37,979 nucleotides of DNA from a virus, in the IMG/VR virus record IMGVR_UViG_3300042923_000187, positions 1 to 37,979 of that record, one strand, 5' to 3'. This document shows, piece by piece, positions 1 through 9,868 of this stretch; the first letter of the stretch is position 1; every line of letters begins with the position of its first letter. Made by a program: the position numbers and the translations under genes. The notes under the pieces were generated by a model that was given only the letters and a program-made list of their open reading frames with translations, had not been told where the DNA came from and did not search any database.

Positions 1-11
1 TGCACATTTCG

Positions 12-43
12 GTCTGTACGGGTTTGAGCGTCAAACCTATCAG
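12..43. repeat. Inverted operator-like motif upstream of TerS
   Basis: GGTTTGA (21-27) and TCAAACC (31-37) form a perfect 7-base inverted repeat with a 3-base spacer. The left arm extends into GTCTGTACGG and the right arm into CTATCAG, both parts of the 18-base repeat found at 792-827, 1012-1047 and 1300-1340. The copy here is imperfect, with one extra G. It lies just upstream of the terminase small subunit gene and could be an operator; that role is inference. Confidence 0.55.
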
Positions 44-63
44 TTAGGGTGGGGGTATCGGTT

Positions 64-82
64 AGAGCCGGTTTTCGGCTCT
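64..82 (+). promoter_or_regulatory. 5' leader hairpin before TerS
   Basis: AGAGCCG (64-70) and CGGCTCT (76-82) form a perfect 7-bp stem around a GTTTT loop. The AGGAGG ribosome-binding site (103-108) follows 20 nt later, with the start codon at 115. There is no strong T-run after the stem. It may stabilise the leader or be a weak terminator of genes to the left of the window. Confidence 0.4.
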
Positions 83-114
83 CAGATCGTTTCTAAGCCC
101 TTAGGAGGCTCCAG

Positions 115-687
115 ATGCCCGGTCCTGCTCCGAAGAACCCCGCAACCCGTCAGCGGCGAAATAAGAGCTCCACAAACGCCAAGCTGTCTCTGGTGGTGGA
201 TCACGAGGTCCCACCGATGCCCGACGCGGACGATTGGATCGGCCAGATCACGTCCAGCGACGGCAACGAGATCCCCGACGCGCCGGTGGAGTGGTCCTCC
301 GCCGTCGTCACCTGGTGGGAGTCGATCTGGTCGTCCCCGATGTCGAACGAGTACCACGACGCGGACATCCACCAGCTCTACCTGGCCTGCTTTTACCTCC
401 AGCAGACCCTCAACCCCTACCTCAAGATGTCCGACCGGCTGAACTCCTCGAAGTCCTACGAGGCCACGATCAAGAACTTCGGCCTGACCCCGATGTCCCG
501 CCGGTCTCTCCAGTGGGAGATCGAGCGGTCCGAGGAAGCTCTCGCCAAGGGTGCCAAGCGCCGCAACCGCACTCCCGAGGCCGACCCCGCTCCAGTCCCC
601 GCTGGCGGGGTCGACGACCCTCGCCTGGCCGAGGACGAGGACGACCAGAATCCGTTCGACGTCTCGCCGGAGTACGACGCGGGATGA
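115..687 (+). CDS. Terminase small subunit (P27-like)
   Basis: A 190-residue protein, probably the DNA-recognition subunit of the packaging terminase, which would hand genome ends to the large subunit at 14639. The start MPGPAPKNPATRQRRNK is typical of actinophage small terminases. The motif GLTPMSRRSLQW (about residues 124-135) matches the conserved LTPxxRRxLxW block of the P27 family, and the tail is acidic and Pro-rich. The ATG is 6 nt after a perfect AGGAGG. The gene stands alone between a leader hairpin and a strong terminator, 14 kb from the large subunit gene, whereas the two are usually adjacent. The assignment rests on motif recognition without a search. Confidence 0.8.
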   Translation: MPGPAPKNPATRQRRNKSSTNAKLSLVVDHEVPPMPDADDWIGQITSSDGNEIPDAPVEWSSAVVTWWESIWSSPMSNEYHDADIHQLYLACFYLQQTLNPYLKMSDRLNSSKSYEATIKNFGLTPMSRRSLQWEIERSEEALAKGAKRRNRTPEADPAPVPAGGVDDPRLAEDEDDQNPFDVSPEYDAG

Positions 688-692
688 CCCGC

Positions 693-704
693 TAAGCTCC
701 ACGA
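693..704 (+). repeat. Boundary motif TAAGCTCCACGA, copy 1
   Basis: This 12-mer recurs exactly at 26307-26318. Both copies lie just after a gene end and just before a long perfect hairpin. TAAGCT also resembles an actinobacterial TANNNT -10 box, but no convincing -35 box is visible. Confidence 0.45.
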
Positions 705-716
705 CGTGTGTTCGGC

Positions 717-753
717 GTGAACCCCGGTCAGTCGGTGGCCGGGGTTCACTTTT
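717..753 (+). terminator. Rho-independent terminator after TerS
   Basis: GTGAACCCCGG (717-727) pairs perfectly with CCGGGGTTCAC (739-749), an 11-bp GC-rich stem with an 11-nt loop, followed directly by TTTT. It begins 30 nt after the terminase small subunit stop codon and should isolate that gene from everything downstream. Confidence 0.85.
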
Positions 754-791
754 GCCCTCATCCGACTGTGACCGAGATCACAGCTCAGACC

Positions 792-827
792 GACCTATCA
801 AACCGTGCAAACCTATCGATTTTCTGT
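792..827 (+). repeat. 18-base repeat cluster A
   Basis: Unit 1 is GACCTATCAAACCGTGCA (792-809), followed head-to-tail by the degenerate unit AACCTATCGATTTTCTGT (810-827). Unit 1 contains the exact core ATCAAACCGT at 797-806. Confidence 0.7.
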
Positions 828-846
828 AGTACCCATCCCGAAAACG

Positions 847-921
847 CTCTGACCTGCGCTTTCTCCCCAGAAAACGATACGTTTCTCCGGTAGGGCTACA
901 CGAAAACACCCTCTGACCTGC
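847..921. repeat. CTGACCTGC repeats, direct pair
   Basis: CTCTGACCTGC occurs at 847-857 and again at 911-921, each preceded by a CGAAAAC-like stretch. Two inverted copies of the nine-base core follow at 1114-1179, so the four copies are arranged two and two around the 18-base repeats at 1012-1047. Confidence 0.6.
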
Positions 922-948
922 TGTATTTCATTGTGCGAGGAAAAAGCT

Positions 949-976
949 GGGACCCCCCTATAAGAGGGGGTGTCCC
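949..976. terminator. GC-rich hairpin, possibly a terminator
   Basis: GGGACCCCCCT (949-959) pairs with AGGGGG-T-GTCCC (965-976), giving 11 bp with one bulged T and a 5-nt ATAAG loop. On the minus strand the stem is followed within a few bases by TTTTT; on the plus strand a TTTT lies 10 nt away. It could stop transcription entering the repeat region from the right. Confidence 0.45.
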
Positions 977-1011
977 TCCGGCCCCCTTTTGCAGAAATCT
1001 TTAGTGACGCC

Positions 1012-1047
1012 GACCTATCAAGCCATACAGATCTATCAAACCGTACA
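1012..1047 (+). repeat. 18-base repeat cluster B (perfect tandem spacing)
   Basis: GACCTATCAAGCCATACA (1012-1029) is followed without a gap by GATCTATCAAACCGTACA (1030-1047), and the next bases are GAC again. This shows the 18-base period most clearly. The second unit holds the exact core ATCAAACCGT at 1035-1044. Confidence 0.75.
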
Positions 1048-1113
1048 GACTAAGTTCTTTTAAGGGTGTCCCAAAGATTATAGAATTACTTAGTACTACA
1101 ATCTCTTGTCTTT

Positions 1114-1179
1114 GCAGGTCAGGGTATGAAAAACCGTAGGAGAAAGTGTATGTGATAGCTTCGCCTTTTCGCAGGTCAG
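1114..1179. repeat. CTGACCTGC repeats, inverted pair
   Basis: GCAGGTCAG occurs at 1114-1122 and 1171-1179, the reverse complement of the core at 849-857 and 913-921. Each copy is followed by a TATG within a few bases. Confidence 0.6.
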
Positions 1180-1299
1180 TATGTAGCGAGGTTTTGAAAT
1201 GTATCCCGGAAAACACAATCATTGCCCGACTATAGGCGCGTGCGCCCGCGCGTGATACACCATCGGCTCCCCGAGCGCAACCGCCAGAGCAACCCGCCA

Positions 1300-1340
1300 T
1301 ATCTATCAAACCGTGCGCCCCGAACCTGACAAACCGCACG
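1300..1340 (+). repeat. 18-base repeat cluster C
   Basis: TATCTATCAAACCGTGCG (1300-1317) holds the exact core ATCAAACCGT at 1305-1314. A weaker unit, AACCTGACAAACCGCACG, follows at 1323-1340. The spacing is 23 bases here instead of 18. Confidence 0.65.
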
Positions 1341-1406
1341 CCCGGTTCGACAGCGCCGCTCTGACCAGCAACAACGAGTTATCTTCGGGAGATATAGCGG
1401 TTAAAC

Positions 1407-1435
1407 TTGACACATACCGACCAGTTCCGTAGTGT
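1407..1435 (+). promoter_or_regulatory. Sigma70-like promoter for the tRNA/accessory block
   Basis: A perfect -35 box TTGACA (1407-1412), a 17-base spacer, and TAGTGT (1430-1435) as the -10 box. It points rightward into the tRNA region and the accessory genes. The 18-base repeats end 66 bp upstream, so a repeat-binding protein could act on it. Confidence 0.7.
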
Positions 1436-1550
1436 TCCTCTCGTCGCCAAGGACATCGGGGTTTATCCCGAGGGACTTCTTCCGAGGCGGCGCAGTTCGA
1501 TCTCCTCCGCAGGACCGTCCACGCTATGGACCTGTGCAGGGGATCGGCAT

Positions 1551-1653
1551 AGGGGAGATGCGTCGCAGATGGCAGCGCGGACTCACCTGGTGGACTTGTG
1601 AGAGAGTTCCTCACCAGGGGGCCGGATCGGGTGTTCGAGTCACCCCTCCCCTA
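1551..1653 (+). tRNA. Unusual tRNA-like cloverleaf, possibly degenerate
   Basis: Three arms fit a tRNA. The acceptor AGGGGAG (1551-1557) pairs with CTCCCCT (1646-1652). A D-arm GCGT/GCGC (1560-1563, 1575-1578) has GG in its loop. The T-arm GGGTG-TTCGAGT-CACCC (1629-1645) is perfect. The centre does not fit: one fold gives CTCAC/GTGAG around an 11-nt loop plus a 26-nt variable region, another gives CCTGGTG/CACCAGG (1586-1592, 1612-1618). Total length is 103 nt against 73-90 for normal tRNAs, and position 8 is A instead of T. No anticodon can be assigned. Confidence 0.35.
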
Positions 1654-1677
1654 CGAAGCGGAATCGGGACTGGTTGT

Positions 1678-1726
1678 CCGGCAGGGCCAGCCAGGAAGCG
1701 ACCGCGAGTCGGACTCTCTCTGCCGG
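1678..1726. other. Inverted repeat between the two tRNA elements
   Basis: CCGGCAG (1678-1684) pairs perfectly with CTGCCGG (1720-1726) around a 35-nt interior. It lies between the tRNA-like element and tRNA-Ile. It may be a processing or spacing structure, and no function can be read from sequence. Confidence 0.25.
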
Positions 1727-1741
1727 GAGGGTTCGGCGCTC

Positions 1742-1814
1742 GCAGGGGTAGCTCAGTGGTGAGAGCGCGGCTCTGATAAAGCCGAGGTCGGTGGTTCAAT
1801 CCCATCTCCCTGCA
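1742..1814 (+). tRNA. tRNA-Ile (GAT anticodon)
   Basis: A complete 73-nt cloverleaf. The acceptor GCAGGGG/TCCCTGC has one G-T pair at its base. T8 and A9 are present, and the D-stem is GCTC/GAGC. The anticodon stem CGGCT/AGCCG encloses loop CTGATAA, with anticodon GAT at 1775-1777. A five-base variable loop is followed by T-stem GGTGG/CCATC with loop TTCAATC. The discriminator is A and CCA is not encoded. It reads AUC, a frequent codon in this GC-rich phage, and is probably co-transcribed from the promoter at 1407. Confidence 0.9.
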
Positions 1815-1921
1815 CGATGGTCACGACGGACAGGCCGGGTTTCCCCCGGCAGTACCTACCGGGGTGCTTCGTGACTGGCCCGGCCCTACTTCAATTTGGC
1901 TGCCAACCAAGGAGATTCACA

Positions 1922-2212
1922 GTGCCACGCAAACAGATCCACGACATCATCGACGAGTGCTACATGGTTCACTCGTACGAGATGGCCGCGAAAGGCAAGA
2001 GCCTCGCGCTGTCCGTCGCGATTCCAAAGGCCCTGGTCGAGAACGACTACGACATCACCCTGCTCGATGACACGGTGTGGACAGAGTTCGCCGACCTGCT
2101 TCATGCTCGGCTGTCGCACTGGGCCACGAAGGGGTCCGACCCGAGGACGCAGGTCGCCGAGATCATCATCGACTTCCAGAACGCCGGTCTGCTCGTCCGG
2201 AAGAGGGCCTGA
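1922..2212 (+). CDS. Hypothetical protein, first gene of the accessory block
   Basis: A 96-residue soluble protein without a family I recognise. GTG at 1922 is chosen because AAGGAG (1909-1914) lies 7 nt upstream; the longer in-frame reading from 1817 starts next to the tRNA end and has no ribosome-binding site. The N-terminus is VPRKQIHDIIDECYMVHSYE and an acidic stretch, ITLLDDTVWTEFADLL, follows. It is the first gene after tRNA-Ile, and its stop overlaps the next start (TGATG), so the two are probably translationally coupled. Confidence 0.75.
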   Translation: MPRKQIHDIIDECYMVHSYEMAAKGKSLALSVAIPKALVENDYDITLLDDTVWTEFADLLHARLSHWATKGSDPRTQVAEIIIDFQNAGLLVRKRA

Positions 2213-2472
2213 TGAGGAAGACAATCGTCGCCGTCGCGGCCAGCGCCGCGCTCCTGGCGGGGTGCGGGTGGGGACCGTCGAACACCGAGGGAACCGTCGT
2301 GGACAAGTCCATCGACAAGGGGTCCTGCAAGCGCAAGGACGGGAAGACCAAGTGCAGCTCGGACGAGTACGAACTCAGCGTCCGGCGCAGCGACGGCGTC
2401 ACCGTCGAGATCGACGTGAGCCGCCGCACCTTCGACCGGGCCAACATCGGCCAGTACGGGAGCTGGAAGTGA
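2212..2472 (+). CDS. Small lipoprotein
   Basis: An 86-residue predicted lipoprotein. The start MRKTIVAVAASAALLAGC has a basic n-region, a hydrophobic core and a lipobox LLAGC with Cys18 as the probable lipidation site. The mature part of about 68 residues is charged and has two further Cys, in KGSC and KCSS. ATG overlaps the previous stop by one base. Phage-encoded lipoproteins of infected actinobacteria and enterobacteria often alter the envelope or block superinfection; that role here is inference. The next gene encodes a membrane protein, so the pair may act together. Confidence 0.75.
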   Translation: MRKTIVAVAASAALLAGCGWGPSNTEGTVVDKSIDKGSCKRKDGKTKCSSDEYELSVRRSDGVTVEIDVSRRTFDRANIGQYGSWK

Positions 2473-2696
2473 AACACCGCATCAAGCTGCGCCGCCCGAA
2501 CCGGACCTACGGGGTCCCCGACAACTACCTGGTCGGCCTGATGGTCTTCCAGTACGTGCTCTGGCTGGTCGTCACACTGCCCTTCATGCCGTTCACCTAC
2601 GAGGGGTTCTGGTGGCAGCTCGTCGTCGTACTGCTCTCCGGCCTCGCGGGGCCGCTGCTGACGTACGCGCTGTTCGGCCACAAGTACCGCCGATGA
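2469..2696 (+). CDS. Small two-segment membrane protein
   Basis: A 75-residue protein with a basic N-terminus (VKHRIKLRRPNR) and two predicted transmembrane segments, about residues 22-40 and 49-68, ending in a basic GHKYRR. GTG at 2469 overlaps the lipoprotein stop codon (GTGA), and a GGGAG lies 6 nt upstream. The topology suggests both ends in the cytoplasm. No family is recognised. Its tight coupling to the lipoprotein gene suggests a shared envelope function. Confidence 0.75.
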   Translation: MKHRIKLRRPNRTYGVPDNYLVGLMVFQYVLWLVVTLPFMPFTYEGFWWQLVVVLLSGLAGPLLTYALFGHKYRR

Positions 2697-2902
2697 CCAA
2701 GGAGAACGAGTGCTCGACGCCATCATCGAGGGAATCGCCGACGCCCTCGGACACGGAGTCCCCGACACCGTCGCCCAGCGCACCGCCGACCGAGCCAGCC
2801 GATCCCGGTGGAGTCGACTACGTCTCCCGTGGCGTCGCGACCAAGGCCCAGCGGGACGCGTTCTACTTGCGGCTGAACGAGATCCAGACACCATCAACGT
2901 GA
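2693..2902 (+). CDS. Hypothetical Ser/Thr/Pro-rich small protein
   Basis: A 69-residue protein starting with ATG overlapped by the previous stop (ATGA). Residues 8-38 are Ser, Thr and Pro rich; the second half (GVDYVSRGVATKAQRDAFYL) looks like a normal folded segment with GC-ending codons. In the same DNA, GTG at 2710 is preceded by a well-spaced AAGGAG and opens another frame whose first 32 codons also look coding. This locus may therefore contain a frameshift or two overlapping genes; see the findings. Function unknown. Confidence 0.5.
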   Translation: MTKENECSTPSSRESPTPSDTESPTPSPSAPPTEPADPGGVDYVSRGVATKAQRDAFYLRLNEIQTPST

Positions 2903-2931
2903 TCTACCCGAACCCATCGGAGGAACGCCAG

Positions 2932-3273
2932 ATGTGGCGCGCACAGATTGTCCGAACCGTCCGCAAGGGTGTGACCCAGTGGGACATGTCCTTCCCGCAG
3001 CCCCACCGCGAGGATGACCTCATCCCCGTGCCGAACTCGGACCAAGAGATCACGCTCGACCACCCCGGCGTCTTCCAGTTCCGGGTCGACCAGCACAACT
3101 CCGTCGACGGCTCTTACCAGTCCACAACATGGGTGGTCGCCAACGACGAGAACACCGTGCTGCTGACCGTCTCCAACATCCTGGAGACCGAGAAGCGCAC
3201 CATTGAGTCGGCCAGGGAGCAGCTCCGAGGCATGGTCTGGGAGTCCCTCCGGCGGGGAGGTCAGTTCCAGTGA
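2932..3273 (+). CDS. Hypothetical protein
   Basis: A 113-residue soluble protein. ATG at 2932 follows GGAGG (2920-2924) by 7 nt, which argues against the longer in-frame reading from 2710. Visible features are MWRAQIVRTVRKGVTQWDMSF at the start and alternating hydrophobic residues consistent with a beta-rich core (VFQFRVDQ, STTWVVAND, VLLTVSNI). A basic helix closes the protein. It is unknown, and its stop overlaps the next GTG start. Confidence 0.7.
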   Translation: MWRAQIVRTVRKGVTQWDMSFPQPHREDDLIPVPNSDQEITLDHPGVFQFRVDQHNSVDGSYQSTTWVVANDENTVLLTVSNILETEKRTIESAREQLRGMVWESLRRGGQFQ

Positions 3274-3620
3274 AGTACCTGTTCATCGGAAACCGTCTCG
3301 TCGACCGGCCGGACACCTGGATGGAGATCACCCACACCGGCCCCCGGCCGCCGGAGACGATGACCATCGTCGTCGAGCTGTACGCCGAGGCCGCCAACCC
3401 CCGCCAGCGGGGTCAGATCGGACGGGCCAGCCAGGTCCGGCACCGCTACTACCGGCACACGCTCGGCAGGTGGCTGCGCGGCGAGGAGTCCAAGGAGAAG
3501 TTCGTCTACCTGCACGAGAGCATCGGCGGCGCGGCCGACCGGAGCATCCCGCTGTCCAACGAGATGGCCGAGAGCCTGTGGGACGAGATCGAGAAGAGGG
3601 AGGCAGCCGACCGTGGCTGA
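3270..3620 (+). CDS. Hypothetical protein
   Basis: A 116-residue protein starting at GTG 3270, overlapping the previous stop (GTGA), with GGGGAGG at 3254-3260. It begins MKYLFIGNRLVDRPDTWMEI, suggesting a beta-strand-rich N-terminus, followed by a basic middle (RASQVRHRYYRHTLGRWLRG) that could contact nucleic acid. It ends in an acidic helix. No family is recognised. It overlaps the next gene by 8 nt. Confidence 0.7.
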   Translation: MKYLFIGNRLVDRPDTWMEITHTGPRPPETMTIVVELYAEAANPRQRGQIGRASQVRHRYYRHTLGRWLRGEESKEKFVYLHESIGGAADRSIPLSNEMAESLWDEIEKREAADRG

Positions 3621-4458
3621 GAAGATCGAGGTCGGCGACACCGTCAAGCCGATCCACTACTCGCAGGAGAACGCCGGAAGGCACTACAAGGTCGAGAGCG
3701 TGGCCGGGTCGTACCTCATCGGTTCTCACGGCGCCATCGGCAGCCGGTACCGCGAGGAGCGCGAGTTCCACGTGGACGACGTGAAGCTCATCCGGAAGAA
3801 CCCCCACCGGTTGAAGACCAAGCCGCTCGGCCACGCGCTCCCCGAGCTGTTTGCGAACCAGGCTCAGCGCGTCGCCATCGCGATCGACTCCGGCCACAAC
3901 GGCTACGGAATGAGCATGGCCGTCCTCGACGAGTCGTTCGGGCCGGACGGCCACCCGATCAACGTCATCACCCAGATCAAGCACCACACCAACGAAGTCC
4001 TGGAGGACCCCGCAGTGCGTCTCGAATACACCACCCCCTCGACCGAGAACTTCCAGGACAAGCTGGCGTGGTACGACCTCGCCATCGCGGAAGCGAACGA
4101 GAAGGTCAAGAAGGCCGACAACAAGTCGGCACTGCGCCGGGAGCAGGCCGCCGAGCTGCGCCGGTCCCGGTCCCGGCTCGCGGTCGATGCCGAAAAGGCC
4201 TCGCTGGGGATGCCGCTGGAACCGGTGCCGAGCCGCTACTCCGAAACGGTGATCACGTTCACCAAGAAGTTCGGCAACAGCTACGGCAAGAGCTACGTCT
4301 ACGCGGCGGTTCGCGCTCCGGGACTGAGCACCTGGTCGGTCACCGGCAAGTCGGAACTGACCTATGCGACGTGGGAGCAGGTCGTGGAGTTCATCCTCCG
4401 CGAGGAGAAGAGCTTCACCCACCGCCGCAAGGCCCTCCAGAGCATCCGGTTGCGCTGA
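3613..4458 (+). CDS. Hypothetical protein with central coiled coil
   Basis: A 281-residue protein from GTG 3613. The first 60 residues (KIEVGDTVKPIHY ... EFHVDDVKLI) resemble a small beta-barrel of the SH3/KOW kind. Residues about 150-195 are charged and helical (AIAEANEKVKKADN, ALRREQAAELRRSR), probably a coiled coil. The C-terminal third has strands and a basic end. No catalytic motif is apparent. The start lies 8 nt inside the previous gene and the stop abuts the next ATG, so it sits in one translational unit with its neighbours. Confidence 0.7.
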   Translation: MAEKIEVGDTVKPIHYSQENAGRHYKVESVAGSYLIGSHGAIGSRYREEREFHVDDVKLIRKNPHRLKTKPLGHALPELFANQAQRVAIAIDSGHNGYGMSMAVLDESFGPDGHPINVITQIKHHTNEVLEDPAVRLEYTTPSTENFQDKLAWYDLAIAEANEKVKKADNKSALRREQAAELRRSRSRLAVDAEKASLGMPLEPVPSRYSETVITFTKKFGNSYGKSYVYAAVRAPGLSTWSVTGKSELTYATWEQVVEFILREEKSFTHRRKALQSIRLR

Positions 4459-5217
4459 ATGAGCGACCTGTCGCGAATCGAGGAACGTGTCAAGGCCCTC
4501 TTCGCTCAGGCGGAGGGGGCCGGGGTCACGGAGGAGGAGTCCGAAGCCTTCCGTGACCGTGCGTACGCGCTGCTGGCGAAGTACGCGCTCGACGAGGCCA
4601 AGCTCCGCGCCGGGAAGACGGCCGAGGACGTGAAGGGTCTCTACGTCCCGATGCCGGAGAGCGTCTACCGGCGGGAGTTACAGGCCCTCCTCGGTGGTCT
4701 CGGCCGGGTGTTCGGCGTGCAGGCGCTCGACTACCTCGACAACTCGGGGTGCTGGCTGTACGGCCTGGAGGAGTCCATCGAGCAGGTGATGATGCTCTTC
4801 ACGCTGATCCACCCGCAGATGACCGGCGCCGCCGAGGAACGCGGCAAGGGCTACGAGCGGCTCACCCCGCTGTTCTTCTTCGACGAGGGCTACGGAACGT
4901 CGTACTCGGCGCCGAAGAGCGACCAGTGGAAGCGATCGTTCGCGACCGGCTACCGAGTCCGCATCCACGAGCGGGTGCAGGAACAGTTCATCGAGGCCGA
5001 GCAGGACGAGGAGGAGACCGGCGAGTCGTCCGGTGTGCTCGTGCTCAAGTCGGACCTGGACCGCGCCAACGAGAAGATCCGCGAGGAGTTCGGCGACATC
5101 ACCGGCCAGCGCGAGCAGGAGCAGTACGACCAGATGGCCGTGCTCAGCGGACACATCGAGGCCGAGAACGCGAACATCGGCGCGACCCAGCTCGACAGCC
5201 GGAAGTTCCTGGGGTGA
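4459..5217 (+). CDS. DUF2786-domain protein
   Basis: A 252-residue protein whose N-terminus (about residues 5-48: RIEERVKALFAQAEGAGVTE ... YALLAKYALDEAKL) matches the DUF2786 pattern, a short helical domain common in actinobacterial and phage proteins whose function is not known. The middle is mixed alpha/beta (LFTLIHPQMTGAAEERGKGY) and residues about 170-235 are acidic and probably coiled coil. ATG follows the previous stop without a gap. Role in the phage is unknown; the domain call is moderately firm. Confidence 0.7.
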   Translation: MSDLSRIEERVKALFAQAEGAGVTEEESEAFRDRAYALLAKYALDEAKLRAGKTAEDVKGLYVPMPESVYRRELQALLGGLGRVFGVQALDYLDNSGCWLYGLEESIEQVMMLFTLIHPQMTGAAEERGKGYERLTPLFFFDEGYGTSYSAPKSDQWKRSFATGYRVRIHERVQEQFIEAEQDEEETGESSGVLVLKSDLDRANEKIREEFGDITGQREQEQYDQMAVLSGHIEAENANIGATQLDSRKFLG

Positions 5218-5346
5218 ACACCCCGATCCACGACCAGCTCCTCAACGAGATGGTCGTCCGCGAGCTGAACTCCCGGTCACGGCATCACGTCGTGGTCGGG
5301 GGTCGGCTCCCGGAGTGGCTGGAGGACATCAGCGCTTGGAATGTGC

Positions 5347-5375
5347 TTGCATCACGGTTTGATTCGTGCGATGAT
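5347..5375 (+). promoter_or_regulatory. Internal promoter with embedded operator motif
   Basis: TTGCAT (5347-5352), a 17-base spacer and GATGAT (5370-5375) form a plausible promoter; TAGATT at 5375-5380 is an alternative -10 box. The spacer contains ACGGTTTGAT (5354-5363), the exact reverse complement of the repeat core ATCAAACCGT from 797, 1035 and 1305. The local drop in GC content agrees with a promoter. AGGAGG and a TTG start follow 29-40 bases downstream. Confidence 0.6.
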
Positions 5376-5414
5376 AGATTTGGTTCCAAACCTTACAGGG
5401 TCCAGGAGGACACT

Positions 5415-6527
5415 TTGAACGACATGCGCACCCACCTTCATCCGCACGAGATGGAGAACGCGGCGGCAGCCGCCCAGCACGAACGCGAACTGACCCGCCG
5501 AGCGCTGCGCGCCGCCACGTACGGAATCGACGGCAGCATCAAGAGCGAAGTCGAGTCGCACGCCGAGTACGTCGAGGCCGAGCGCGCCCGACGCGCCGAG
5601 ATCGCCCACGAGGAGGAGCAGGAGGCCGAGAAGCTGGCAGAGCACCAGCGCCGGACCACCCCGACGCCGTTCGACGCCTACTTCCTCCCCGAGCGCCTGG
5701 CGCACCTGGAGAACTTCCCCGGCGAGGCTACCGAGTCCGAGCAGTACCGGATCATGCGCGCCGCGCGCCGAGAAGGCGTCCTGGAAGGCGCGGACGAGGA
5801 GGCCCCTGTGGTGAACATGGAGGAGGCGCAGCGCCGCGCGGCAGCCAAGCTCGACCTGCTGAACGCCGAGCTTGACCGCGACGCCGAGGCGAAGAAGCAG
5901 TTCCAGCTCCAGACCGAGGGGCAGTTCCTGGGGAACGAGCCGATGCGCGTGGGCTTCGAGGACGGGGCTGGTCACATCATCGTCGGCGAAGCCAAGATCA
6001 CCCCGGCGCCGGACGGCGGCTTCCTGCTGACGATCGACGACGGCCAGGCGGAGACCTGCGAGGGTATCGGCTGCTGGTGCGGCAAGCCGAAGGCCGGGAC
6101 CATCGAGGACGGAGTGATCTCGGTCGAGGTCGGGGAGGTCGACGAGGTGCTCGAAGGCGAGGTCATCGACGGCTCAAAGCCGTGGGTCATCGGCGCGCCG
6201 GACTACGTCCAGGGCTACCAGGACGGGGTAACCGATACGCACGCCGACCAGATTGCGGAAGATCGCATCATCGCCGAGAAGCTCCGTCAGGATGAGGAGC
6301 GCGGCTACGCCGTCGACACCGAACCGGCGCCGGTCGACCAGGGCAACCCGTCGGCGCACGACCTCGTCGTCGAGGACATGGGACAGCGGAAGCAGCACGG
6401 ACTCGATGTGTACGGCGTCACACTCCAGGGTGGTAACGGCCGGGACCAGCTCCGCGATGCATACATGGAAGCTCTGGATCTCGTCTGCTACTTGCGCGCA
6501 GCCCTGTTCGAGAGGGATGGCCGCTGA
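5415..6527 (+). CDS. Hypothetical protein, MazG-like C-terminal motif possible
   Basis: A 370-residue protein if it starts at TTG 5415, which has AGGAGG (5404-5409) 5 nt upstream. An in-frame GTG at 5214, overlapping the previous stop, would add 67 residues across the promoter at 5347. Residues 18-80 and 135-165 are charged helices, likely coiled coil. A small Cys cluster lies at 215, 220 and 222. The C-terminal end (QRKQHGLDVYG ... GRDQLRDAYMEALDL) resembles a short helical segment widespread in actinophage proteins and loosely similar to MazG-type folds; this link is weak. Overall function unknown. Confidence 0.65.
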   Translation: MNDMRTHLHPHEMENAAAAAQHERELTRRALRAATYGIDGSIKSEVESHAEYVEAERARRAEIAHEEEQEAEKLAEHQRRTTPTPFDAYFLPERLAHLENFPGEATESEQYRIMRAARREGVLEGADEEAPVVNMEEAQRRAAAKLDLLNAELDRDAEAKKQFQLQTEGQFLGNEPMRVGFEDGAGHIIVGEAKITPAPDGGFLLTIDDGQAETCEGIGCWCGKPKAGTIEDGVISVEVGEVDEVLEGEVIDGSKPWVIGAPDYVQGYQDGVTDTHADQIAEDRIIAEKLRQDEERGYAVDTEPAPVDQGNPSAHDLVVEDMGQRKQHGLDVYGVTLQGGNGRDQLRDAYMEALDLVCYLRAALFERDGR

Positions 6528-6769
6528 TGATCCGAGTCGGCTTCCGACCTTCCCCGCTGGTCAACGTCCTCCCCAAGAGGGCCACGCTGGTGGGGTGCGA
6601 CTTCCCGCTCTGTGAGAAGGCCCTGGAGTTCCCCGTTAACCTCCAGGCCACCGACACCCAGTGCAAGAACGACACCATCCGCTACCTGCGGCGCGCGAAG
6701 CCTCACGGCTGGCACACCGACGGTCGCAAGTTCTACTGCCAGGCCCACGCCCCGAAGACCGGAGGATAG
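6527..6769 (+). CDS. Small Cys-containing hypothetical protein
   Basis: An 80-residue protein with ATG overlapping the previous stop by one base (TGATG). It has four Cys, in GCDFPLC, TQCKND and FYCQAH, and His near the last one, so a small zinc-binding fold is possible but the spacing is not a standard finger. The rest is basic (YLRRAKPHGWHTDGRKFY). Unknown function. Confidence 0.65.
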   Translation: MIRVGFRPSPLVNVLPKRATLVGCDFPLCEKALEFPVNLQATDTQCKNDTIRYLRRAKPHGWHTDGRKFYCQAHAPKTGG

Positions 6770-6773
6770 AACA

Positions 6774-7121
6774 ATGCCCGACCAGACGATGAGCGCCGAG
6801 GATCGTGTCCAGGTGGACAAGCTCGCCCTGGAGATCGCATTCAAGAGCGAGGCGGAGCCGCTGACCGAGGCGGAGTCCGCCCTGCTGGCCACGGTGCGCC
6901 ACCTGCACGTGGTGGAGAGCCGCAACCGCGCCCTCGGCGCGTCGCACGCACAGCTGGAAAAGTACGAGGACATCGTCGGCGCCCTCCAGCGCCAGCACAG
7001 CGGACTCCGCCAGGCCATCCGCGTCGCGGAGGACGGTCTGCTCGTCGGCGAGGTCACGGCGATGAAGGCCATCTATGGTGACCTGACCACCGTTCTCACC
7101 AAGCCGGAAGAGGTTCACTGA
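6774..7121 (+). CDS. Hypothetical helical protein
   Basis: A 115-residue protein from ATG 6774, 8 nt after GGAGG (6761-6765). It is almost entirely predicted helix (DRVQVDKLALEIAFKSEAEP, AHAQ-like repeats, LEKYEDIVGALQRQHSGLRQ) and has no Cys or membrane segment. It resembles many unassigned phage helical proteins and no family is recognised. One base separates it from the next gene. Confidence 0.65.
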   Translation: MPDQTMSAEDRVQVDKLALEIAFKSEAEPLTEAESALLATVRHLHVVESRNRALGASHAQLEKYEDIVGALQRQHSGLRQAIRVAEDGLLVGEVTAMKAIYGDLTTVLTKPEEVH

Positions 7122-7122
7122 C

Positions 7123-7353
7123 ATGCCCAAGATCGCAGGAGAAGATCACGATCCGGACGCAATCCTGGAGGCGACTCCGGATGAAGTCCGGACGTGGGAC
7201 GCTGAGTCATTGCAGGCGTACGTGGACCGCGCCGGACCGCTCCACTTGGAGATCATGAACCGGGCCGAGGAGCTGATGGTGCAGGCCAGGCCGCTGAACG
7301 AGGGCCTGTACGTCGCGCGCAACCGACTGATCGAACTCGGAAAGAAGGTCTGA
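7123..7353 (+). CDS. Hypothetical small helical protein
   Basis: A 76-residue, acidic, helical protein (DAILEATPDEVRTWDAESLQ, IMNRAEELMVQARPLNEGLY). ATG is 1 nt after the previous stop, so it depends on translational coupling. Unknown function. Confidence 0.6.
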   Translation: MPKIAGEDHDPDAILEATPDEVRTWDAESLQAYVDRAGPLHLEIMNRAEELMVQARPLNEGLYVARNRLIELGKKV

Positions 7354-7355
7354 TC

Positions 7356-8114
7356 ATGACCAGCGGGAGAGCTATCTGGATAAACGTCCAGGCCGTCACG
7401 ATGGTGTTCGTCTCGCTGGTCCTGTTCGCCGGGGTCGTCCATGTCACCAATGGCGACCTCGGCCAGGCGTTCGAGAACACGATCGTCGCGGCGTCGTTGG
7501 CCGGGGCAGTGCTGCTCGGCCGGTTCGTTGAAAGGCGCATCGTCGCCCTCCAGCGGGTCGAGGGTCTGCGCCGCCGGTTCGACGCCGACGTGGCCGCCGA
7601 GCTGGCCGAGGCCGAGAAGTGGCACGCCGAGAAGCTCTACGAGGAGCGACAGGCCGCCGCGCTAGCCGAGCGGGTCCGGCGCTGGGAGGCGCACCTCCCC
7701 GGTGTCGAGGAGGCCGAGGAGCTGGCGTACGCGGAGAAGGCGGAGCGATCCAATCCGCAGTTCATGGTCGACCAGATGCAGGAGCGTCGCCGACAGGCCC
7801 GGTCGCGCTCTGAGCGTGGCTTCGGCCGGTACCTCGACCCGAAGACCGCTGGCGACGTTCATCCGGAGCGCATCCGGGCCGCCGAGGCGGCCAATCAGAT
7901 GGCGATCGTCGCCGACCAGCTCGGGGGCAACTACGCGACGTTGGCGCAGCACCAGCGGGACCTGATCCTCCGGCCGCTGCCAGGCGTCGGGGTGGCGATG
8001 ACGGGCAACCCCTTCCCGTACGACGTGGTTGACACCAGCACGACGGAGTCGTGGGGAGTCCTGGAGCCGGTCCGTGTGGACCCGACAACCGGCGAGCTTG
8101 GATTCACGGGTTGA
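7356..8114 (+). CDS. Membrane-anchored protein with long cytoplasmic helix
   Basis: A 252-residue protein. Residues about 8-30 (INVQAVTMVFVSLVLFAGVV) and 42-57 (IVAASLAGAVLLGRFV) are two transmembrane segments. Residues 58-160 are a strongly charged helix (DADVAAELAEAEKWHAEKLY), likely coiled coil. The C-terminal 60 residues are more globular. It is probably anchored in the host membrane with the bulk in the cytoplasm. No family is recognised. Its start is 2 nt after the previous stop, and it is the last gene before the promoter at 8111. Confidence 0.65.
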   Translation: MTSGRAIWINVQAVTMVFVSLVLFAGVVHVTNGDLGQAFENTIVAASLAGAVLLGRFVERRIVALQRVEGLRRRFDADVAAELAEAEKWHAEKLYEERQAAALAERVRRWEAHLPGVEEAEELAYAEKAERSNPQFMVDQMQERRRQARSRSERGFGRYLDPKTAGDVHPERIRAAEAANQMAIVADQLGGNYATLAQHQRDLILRPLPGVGVAMTGNPFPYDVVDTSTTESWGVLEPVRVDPTTGELGFTG

Positions 8115-8140
8115 CAAGTTTGATCGTCAAGGCTTACAGT
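8111..8140 (+). promoter_or_regulatory. Promoter with operator-like spacer
   Basis: A perfect -35 box TTGACA (8111-8116), an 18-base spacer, and TACAGT (8135-8140). The spacer holds GTTTGAT (8118-8124), a 7-of-10 match to the repeat core read in the same orientation as the copy at 5354. TTGAC/GTCAA (8111-8115, 8126-8130) also form an inverted repeat over the -35 box. The stretch GTTTGATCGTCAA is close to GTTTGAGCGTCAA at 22-34. The next gene starts 38 nt downstream. Confidence 0.65.
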
Positions 8141-8178
8141 TAGTGCATTGCAAGAGCAGGCCAACCGTAGGAGACATC

Positions 8179-8550
8179 TTGAGCATCACAGAAGCGTTCG
8201 GGGTTGCCAGTCCGGTCGAGTCCCCCTTCGAGCGTGACACCCTGAACTACCCCGGCGAGTGCGTCGACATCATCGGCCAGGTAGTCGGACCGAACTGGCT
8301 CGGCGAGCACTTCGTCATCACCGACGTGACGTGCGTGTGCTCGGTGGAGACCGGCGCCGACACCACGATCGCGCACCTGGAGCACCTGACCGGCGAGCGC
8401 AAGGCCCTGGTCACCAGCGAAGCCAAGCGTGAGTTCGTCACCAAGACAGCAGCGATCAAGCTGGCCCGCCAGGAGATCCCGGCCCTGCCGGAGTGGCGCG
8501 AGATCCGCGAGGTCGAGGCCACCCTGCCCAAGTCACACCTGTGGATCTGA
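8179..8550 (+). CDS. Hypothetical protein, first gene after promoter
   Basis: A 123-residue protein from TTG 8179, with TAGGAG (8168-8173) 5 nt upstream. Longer in-frame readings would start inside the previous gene and cross the promoter. It has an N-terminal beta-rich half (DIIGQVVGPNWLGEHFVITD) with a CxC pair in TCVCSV, then a helical basic half (EAKREFVTKTAAIKLARQEI). The promoter-AGGAG-TTG layout copies the one at 5347-5415. Function unknown. Confidence 0.65.
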   Translation: MSITEAFGVASPVESPFERDTLNYPGECVDIIGQVVGPNWLGEHFVITDVTCVCSVETGADTTIAHLEHLTGERKALVTSEAKREFVTKTAAIKLARQEIPALPEWREIREVEATLPKSHLWI

Positions 8551-8559
8551 GAGGAACCA

Positions 8560-8823
8560 GTGAGTAGCGAAGTCGATGAGGCTCTCCTCAACGCGCTGAA
8601 CGTCGAGGTCAAGGACCGAATGGGGGAAGGGGTGTTCGTGAAGAACACGATCATCCTGACCCTCGTGGAGACGCCGCGACGGGACGGCGACAAGCCGGAC
8701 GCGCAGCGCTTCCAGATGCTCGTCAAGACGCTCCAGCCGATCCGCACCGAGACGGCCGCGCGGATGATCAACGAGGCCGCCGTGCAGTTCCAGCGGCAAC
8801 GGATGGAAGCCGAGAAGAAGTGA
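8560..8823 (+). CDS. Hypothetical protein
   Basis: An 87-residue protein from GTG 8560, preceded by GAGAGGAA. A short beta-strand pair (VFVKNTIILTLVETP) is flanked by helices, ending in a charged helix (INEAAVQFQRQRMEAEKK). No family is recognised. The stop overlaps the next GTG start. Confidence 0.6.
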   Translation: MSSEVDEALLNALNVEVKDRMGEGVFVKNTIILTLVETPRRDGDKPDAQRFQMLVKTLQPIRTETAARMINEAAVQFQRQRMEAEKK

Positions 8824-8984
8824 AGTACCAGCACTTTCTGGTCGCGAATCAGTTCGGCGGACTGGACCAGGTCGTGCATCTCCCGGTCGAGGGACCCGCC
8901 GCCGAGCGGTTCTTCGACGAGTTCTGCAACGCCTACATGGCGAACAAATACCGAGCTGCCATTACACCGGAGGAATCCAAGTGA
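8820..8984 (+). CDS. Hypothetical 54-residue protein
   Basis: A short gene between two overlapping neighbours: GTG 8820 overlaps the previous stop (GTGA) and its own stop (8982-8984) overlaps the ThyX start. The protein starts VKYQHFLVANQFGGLDQV and has an aromatic-rich middle (ERFFDEFCNAYM). Codons end mostly in G or C until the last 15, which are richer in A and T. The doubly overlapped position supports real translation. Unknown function. Confidence 0.6.
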   Translation: MKYQHFLVANQFGGLDQVVHLPVEGPAAERFFDEFCNAYMANKYRAAITPEESK

Positions 8985-9868
8985 CCGAGATGAAGACCAA
9001 GTTCCACGCGAAGCTCGACGTTCAGCTTGTTGGCTACACCGTCTACAAGCCGCCGACGGACCCAGAGACCGGCAGCCCGGTTATGCCGCATGACATCTCG
9101 GACACGTCGTTCGGCCGGAACCAGTCCCTCATGGCCCTGGCGGGGAGAGGGTGCTACGAGTCGTTCGACAACCCCAAGGGCCGGACGATCCCCGAGTACC
9201 TGTGGAACATCCTCAAGCAGAAGCACGGCTCGGTCCTGGAGCACGCCAGCGTCAGCTTCCGGCTGACCGGCATCTCCCGCGCGTGTTCCCATGAGATCGT
9301 CCGCCACCGGCACCACTCGTTCTCGCAGCTCAGCCAGCGGTACGTGGACGCGCGGCAGATGGGGATCGTCGTTCCCCCGGCCATGATCGAATTCTTCGCC
9401 GAGCTGGTCGACGGCACCGAGAAGACCGATGAGGAGATCGCAGGCTTCCTCGACGTCGAGAGCGTCAAGGGACTGACCCGCCAGGAGTTGATTGATCTCT
9501 GCGCGGAAACCTACGCGGCCGAGAACTACGGCGAGGTGAACGCGCGCTACACCGACACGATGGAAGAGCTGGCCGAGATGTTCCCGCACATGGGACGCAA
9601 GGCGCTGCGCGGCGCCGCACGGTCGGAGCTGACCGAGGCCGTCGAGACCCGGATGGTCATCACGGCCAACCTGCGAGCGTGGATGGACTTCCTCGTCCAG
9701 CGGGATGCGCCGTCCGCCGACGCGGAGATCCGGGCCGTGGCGCAGGAGATCGGCCGTCATCTGGCCGACTACGCACCGGCCATCTTTGGACCCGAGGGGA
9801 GGGCTCTGTGGGACGATGCATCTCGACATGAGGTAGATCACACTCCCGCAGCTCCCCCGGAGGTTTAA
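8981..9868 (+). CDS. thyX: Flavin-dependent thymidylate synthase ThyX
   Basis: A 295-residue enzyme that methylates dUMP to dTMP with methylenetetrahydrofolate, using FAD and NADPH. The family signature RHRx7S is complete at residues 108-118 (RHRHHSFSQLS), followed by QRY. The preceding stretch VLEHASVSFRLTGISRACSHEIV is typical of ThyX. Length is a little above the usual 220-260 because of an insertion around residues 130-165. GTG start overlaps the previous stop, with GGAGGAA upstream (8969-8975). It should raise thymidylate supply during phage replication independently of host ThyA. Confidence 0.95.
   Translation: MTEMKTKFHAKLDVQLVGYTVYKPPTDPETGSPVMPHDISDTSFGRNQSLMALAGRGCYESFDNPKGRTIPEYLWNILKQKHGSVLEHASVSFRLTGISRACSHEIVRHRHHSFSQLSQRYVDARQMGIVVPPAMIEFFAELVDGTEKTDEEIAGFLDVESVKGLTRQELIDLCAETYAAENYGEVNARYTDTMEELAEMFPHMGRKALRGAARSELTEAVETRMVITANLRAWMDFLVQRDAPSADAEIRAVAQEIGRHLADYAPAIFGPEGRALWDDASRHEVDHTPAAPPEV

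Follow-up and report, generated by a model that had tools for sequence, protein, structure and literature searches.

The ten-base word ATCAAACCGT, repeated in the 37,979-base record IMGVR_UViG_3300042923_000187 of a soil-type phage (the window, meaning the whole stretch of DNA analysed), is not a product of chance, and it probably marks the contact site of a phage protein that controls several genes. Since the first bases of the window correspond to the record starts of linear relatives, the window is taken as the left ~57% of a ~67-kb genome; motif counts for this phage refer to that part, the right arm (~29 kb) lying outside the record. As claimed in an earlier sequence-only reading, exact copies are found at 797-806, 1035-1044 and 1305-1314 on the + strand and at 5354-5363 on the - strand, and its estimate that chance would give well under one is confirmed by an average of 0.037 exact copies per shuffled window versus the four found. 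Matches with at most one mismatch number six, versus 1.26 expected. Three of the exact copies fall within the noncoding gap that follows the terminase small subunit gene (terS), shuffled versions of which contain 0.002 exact copies on average and display any 10-mer three times in just 1 of 1000 cases.

The repeat extends to an asymmetric unit of ~18 bp, CTATCAAACCGTACAGAC. Four such units lie on the + strand within this one gap: the first at 795-812 (containing 797-806, with two mismatches to CTATCAAACCGTACAGAC), a diverged second at 1015-1032 (three mismatches), a third at 1033-1050 (containing 1035-1044) that the second abuts in tandem with a start-to-start spacing of 18, and a fourth, placed by unit alignment, at 1303-1320 (containing 1305-1314). 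A fifth unit is located outside the gap, and orientations are mixed.

The sequence-only reading had also proposed looking for the unit in close relatives, and one of them, MacGully, does contain it. A 14-bp matrix trained solely on the five units of the window and applied at a threshold of at least 9.9 bits retrieved 8 sites in the right arm (61263-66998) of Rhodococcus phage MacGully, versus a mean of 0.54 and a maximum of 4 for 1000 column-permuted matrices, none of which did as well (0 of 1000), part of this signal possibly being promoter-like sequence, as the permutation preserves base composition and not the order of TTGAYA. Three pairs of sites are exactly 18 bp apart, versus a permuted mean of 0.01 and again 0 of 1000 as good, both sets of permutation figures being somewhat flattering because a first look at looser matches preceded the choice of the right arm and of the 18-bp pairing. 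Two of these tandem pairs, at 63113/63131 upstream of gp96 and at 65174/65192 upstream of gp100, lie on TTGACA-N16-TAGNNT promoters, while the third, at 61563/61581 on the other strand, accompanies a leftward promoter at 61587; a single strong site is additionally present upstream of gp99. Each pair covers the -35 box (CGSTTTGACA, or CGGGTTGACA on the other strand) and reaches the -10 box (TTGATAGGGT, TGTGATAGGCT, TTGATATACAGT; -10 form CGSTTTGATAGNNT). Unlike the TTGAYA-containing part of the signal, the copies at the -10 are not explained by ordinary promoter sequence.

Scanning of Apiary and of Nocardia phage NC1 with the window matrix gave no enrichment. Among IMG/VR sequences, CTATCAAACCGTNCANAC was found in seven contigs, none showing relatedness, and a search for the tandem-promoter pattern also returned seven contigs, in which the sites resemble either chance matches or a tandem repeat unrelated to the unit. 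Marietta, Sukkupi and IDyn offer a parallel, with an unrelated word, TAGTTGTCACGGTT, present in three copies in the gap and found once more over the -35 of promoters in the right arm, and the Sukkupi group presents 64-83 12-mer matches between gap and right arm versus ~20 in shuffles. Such k-mer sharing was considered as a family-wide rule and rejected, as it is clearly significant in this group alone.

Regarding the window itself, the copy at 5354-5363 is indeed situated, as had been described, inside the 17-base spacer of an internal + strand promoter, TTGCAT(5347-5352)-N17-GATGAT(5370-5375), although this promoter (5347-5375) matches the consensus at 8 of 12 positions and falls below the consensus-scan threshold; a MacGully counterpart at the same gene junction coincides with it in 20 of 32 bases. 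Sites are, as expected for operators, over-represented and promoter-overlapping in more than one genome, namely at 5354 in the window and in the MacGully right arm. The stretch GTTTGAT at 8118-8124, previously counted as a partial copy, does not stand as evidence for the motif, lying in the spacer of an 18-spaced promoter (TTGACA-N18-TACAGT, 8111-8140, + strand) kept in place in MacGully, Apiary and GuyFagieri, in whose counterparts the spacers differ and the motif is absent. A better match than GTTTGAT is the weak unit-like site TCACGGGTTGACAA (8104-8117, + strand, 9.3 bits with the matrix), which overlies the -35 of this same promoter.

The 8111 promoter belongs to a class found in the Rhodococcus/Nocardia branch, TTGNNA-N18-TAC[AT]GT (TACWGT), in which the spacer is fixed at 18: among the sequences searched, the pattern occurs 17 times with a spacer of 18, once with 17 and never with any other spacer from 12 to 24. 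Positions 12-13 of the spacer are CA in most members. Sites of the class were located in the window (8111-8140), MacGully (L006), Apiary (L007/L008), GuyFagieri (L028/L029), NC1 (L009/L010) and a 26-kb contig (L194, position 9861). In this branch, promoters of the class drive a gene encoding a protein with two MerR domains, represented by MacGully gp64 (143 amino acids, two MerR-type domains), which has relatives across the family. As judged from its domains, this conserved protein is the leading candidate regulator. Among 20 window proteins of the left part, none displays a helix-turn-helix or repressor domain.

Altogether, a single phage DNA-binding protein may recognize the 18-bp asymmetric units, which would be able to sit head to tail, and control access of RNA polymerase to the promoters of non-structural genes, a reading that we hold with slightly better than even confidence. 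In the window, such a protein would find four units between the terS terminator and the promoter at 1407, and one in the spacer of the 5347 promoter; in MacGully, its binding at 18-bp-spaced pairs over the -35 and -10 boxes would directly affect polymerase entry. The overlap of both promoter boxes slightly favours repression over activation. The regulator of several promoters envisaged by the sequence-only reading gains in two respects, since one site class is common to the control region and to promoters, as illustrated by the MacGully tandem sites, and a DNA-binding regulator is supported. What is observed are the sites, their excess over chance, the tandem spacing and the overlap with promoters; the protein, its phage origin and an effect on transcription are inferred. 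More tentatively, and with clearly lower probability, a two-layer code might operate, in which the fixed-18-spacer class (TTGNNA-N18-TACWGT, with CA at 12-13), which also drives the protein with two MerR domains, would be combined with fast-changing, phage-specific 18-bp head-to-tail operators shared by the control region between genes 1 and 2 and other promoters, so that one phage regulator, possibly that same protein, would time non-structural genes in phages without known lysogeny.

Several observations weigh against the proposal of a dedicated regulator. Just one exact copy of ATCAAACCGT is found outside the gap, in ~36.5 kb of the 38-kb contig, and the gap units of the window are not placed on strong promoters. 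In MacGully and other relatives, the motif is not preserved at the promoters that correspond to 5347 and 8111, and for MacGully and several Gordonia relatives little or no plain k-mer sharing links the gap to the right arm. Moreover, no regulator is tied to the unit, the promoter of the MerR-type gene itself bearing a different signature in most relatives.

Among other explanations, the one that survives best, while still improbable, is that the gap constitutes a replication origin in which the 18-bp units act as iterons for an initiator, the copy in the 5347 promoter being there by chance or for autoregulation. Such a role would fit the AT-rich, noncoding character of the block, its clusters of direct and inverted repeats, and a genome type having its own primase/polymerase, helicase and DnaE. 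Nonetheless, there are few units, spaced irregularly save for a single tandem pair, the other two being scattered, and in MacGully they are on promoters rather than in a repeat block, its gap being without a strong unit. Next in rank, and also unlikely, the units would be mainly promoter sequence, namely TTGAYA -35-like hexamers with a favoured flank, read by the host RNA polymerase with no dedicated regulator. GGTTTGAYA does contain a near -35 hexamer, the first unit of each MacGully pair is the -35, and a GGTTTGACA-type -35 flank is present at the Kabluna gene-2 promoter. On the other hand, the second unit of each MacGully pair ends at the -10, a place where TTGA does not belong to any known sigma-A element, neither strand offers a suitably spaced -10 for three window units, and the 5354 copy sits between the two boxes.

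Similarity to the unit at the terminus, 12-43, had also been put forward as evidence for the motif, a point that does not stand: TGTACGGGTT and (c)AAACCTGACAG are conserved close to the genome end in relatives without the motif, so that this motif-like stretch, TGTACGGGTT...CAAACCTATCAG, is explained separately as a terminus-proximal (cos-type) element. It nevertheless gives some basis to a quite improbable alternative, in which the units are binding sites of the terminase small subunit (TerS), related to the terminus element and serving packaging, as CCGTACAGAC (1041-1050) is the exact reverse complement of GTCTGTACGG by the genome end, and the GuyFagieri terminus has CGATCAAACCTGACAGC, close to the unit. 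However, conservation of the terminus element extends to phages with no unit in the gap, and both the MacGully right-arm promoter sites and 5354 are far from cos. The least credible option is an L5-type stoperator system, in which an immunity repressor acting on many asymmetric sites stops prophage transcription, since, even though the sites are short, asymmetric, in noncoding DNA and in one case in a promoter, integrase, parABS and repressor genes are reported to be missing from the related cluster CR phages (PMC5559632), none of these is annotated in MacGully or Apiary, and the units occur in both orientations, are not spread through operons and differ in length and sequence from 13-bp stoperators.

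As for the phage itself, the closest matches of the record are in the Zierdtviridae, with Rhodococcus phages MacGully and Apiary as nearest relatives and Nocardia phage NC1 and Gordonia cluster CR-type phages as more distant ones. Membership in the family is indicated by TerS, TerL and portal homology together with the family gene order, the left arm sharing the succession terS, gap, small genes, thyX, lysin B, HNH and terL. Right arms of relatives encode replication, WhiB and helix-turn-helix genes. The 26-kb contig L194, carrying a close relative of MacGully gp64, was considered as the missing right half and not retained, as the stretch read has no 18-mer in common with the window and the motif is not enriched in it. 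Gene 1 (terS, 115-687, + strand) matches Pfam PF25673 Terminase_7 (E=8e-19) and its product is 69% identical to Apiary gp1; homologues are labelled minor tail protein by PHROGs and some GenBank records, whereas Pfam assigns them to Terminase_7. A TerS scan of bacterial genomes produced one weak match and no prophage relative. A tRNA-Ile (GAT) at 1742-1815 separates the control region from the first left-arm genes, and Rfam analysis of window positions 1-9000 detected this tRNA alone, plus a sub-threshold match on its opposite strand.

The noncoding control region (688-1406, ~700 bp) extends from terS to a rightward promoter, its GC content dropping to 0.45-0.52 versus 0.65 for the window. It begins with a probable + strand terminator, an inverted repeat with 14-nt arms (93% complementary) followed by TTTT (717-749), which the consensus scan does not list, and it leads to the promoter of the left-arm operon, TTGACA-N17-TAGTGT (1407-1435, + strand), detected by sequence scan, TTGACA promoters being at the same place in MacGully, Apiary and GuyFagieri. 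Gap units were also considered as leftward promoters, an option not adopted because, apart from the pair at 1015/1033 with its weak TTGATA-N16-TAGGTC, none has a suitably placed -10. Each relative examined from the Rhodococcus, Gordonia and Nocardia branches has a gap, roughly 590-1040 bp long, 3' of terS, Corynebacterium phage C3PO being the exception, with no similar-sized gap after terS. Units of the ATCAAACCGT type are not common to most relatives' gaps: those of Apiary and GuyFagieri retain one CSGTTTGATAG copy just upstream of the gene-2 promoter, and the matrix detects no strong unit in that of MacGully.

Perhaps the most interesting element of the region is another one, the CTGACCTGC box, found in all 14 gaps compared, that of the window included. 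In the window it occurs at 849-857 and 913-921 on the + strand and at 1114-1122 and 1171-1179 on the - strand, with CTGACCAGC at 1361-1369 (+). A longer form, GCTCTGACCTGCGNTTT, is present in at least 119 IMG/VR contigs versus 3 for the reversed pattern, and open reading frames of at least 100 amino acids cover 40 of its 121 occurrences, whereas such frames span 71% of those contigs. In named records it lies mostly in unannotated DNA of Mycobacterium, Gordonia, Rhodococcus, Streptomyces and Corynebacterium actinophages, sometimes close to genome ends, attP or a promoter; a literature search by the letters of the box CTCTGACCTGCGG found no paper. Separately, GCGCGTGCGCCCGCGCGTGATAC at 1236-1258 of the window can be aligned to an element, CGCGTGATAC, of the MacGully, Apiary and GuyFagieri gaps, with a similar stretch in Pleakley, and the Sukkupi gap contains a long inverted repeat (L015 1041-1091) made up of TTAGTTGTCACGGTT and its complement, the pair being also found in Marietta and IDyn.

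Overall, the word can be traced between genomes, the matrix of one phage predicting 18-bp-spaced pairs on the -35 and -10 boxes of another, and what was an unexplained repeat becomes a candidate operator, for which a candidate protein can be named and the promoters are defined. These features suggest that a phage may control promoters through sites of rapidly changing specificity without having lysogenic immunity.

Regarding known systems, classical MerR sites are palindromes in 19-20-base spacers. The asymmetric units described here depart from that arrangement, although relatives encode the protein with two MerR domains and the spacer of its promoter is long, fixed at 18 bases and contains a conserved core, both reminiscent of MerR control. 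Cluster K mycobacteriophages contain start-associated SAS/ESAS repeats (PMC3203893) which, as here, are repeated sites upstream of non-structural genes, but SAS is located at the ribosome binding site and the units described here are on promoter boxes. Closer to SAS than the units is a start-proximal leader, GAACGGAG, positioned a few bases 5' of the start codon and common to many right-arm genes of MacGully (L006, 41534-46285), Apiary (L008, 28876-36708) and GuyFagieri (L029, 22702-30361).

The L5/Cluster A stoperators are 13 bp long with a TGTCAAG-type core, their published consensus being GGTGGTTGTCAAG or GGGGATTGTCAAG (PMC5559632), and they number 20-30, mostly in one orientation with transcription, in temperate phages with an immunity repressor (PMC6550527, PMC9283540, PMC5559632). 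The resemblance noted by the sequence-only reading is sustained insofar as there are many asymmetric sites, of one type common to an early promoter and other places, which diverge between related phages. Beyond this it is not supported, as the group has no known lysogeny genes, orientation is mixed and the sites show no genome-wide spread as far as the window reaches; the unit, CTATCAAACCGTACAGAC, has neither the 13-bp length nor the TGTCAAG-type 3' part, the 38-kb window does not hold 20-30 sites mostly in one orientation, and neither a repressor nor a sign of a temperate lifestyle is seen in this left part of the genome.

Also close are the Microbacterium phages of clusters EC, EG and EI, which are without lysogeny genes and have repeated short intergenic words specific to each cluster, no repressor being identified in EG and EI; the EC word is 18 bp, asymmetric and present in 12 copies, all in one orientation before genes (PMC7302621). 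Like the EC/EI type, the window phage combines a short conserved word, repeated in small intergenic regions, with the absence of known lysogeny genes, and the unit coincides with the EC word in its 18-bp length and asymmetry. Unlike EC, its units are concentrated in a single control region, lie in either orientation, form a pair at 18 bp and have an unrelated sequence. The repeats belong, in short, to a known kind, the intergenic words of actinobacteriophages, and their link to promoter boxes is unusually direct.

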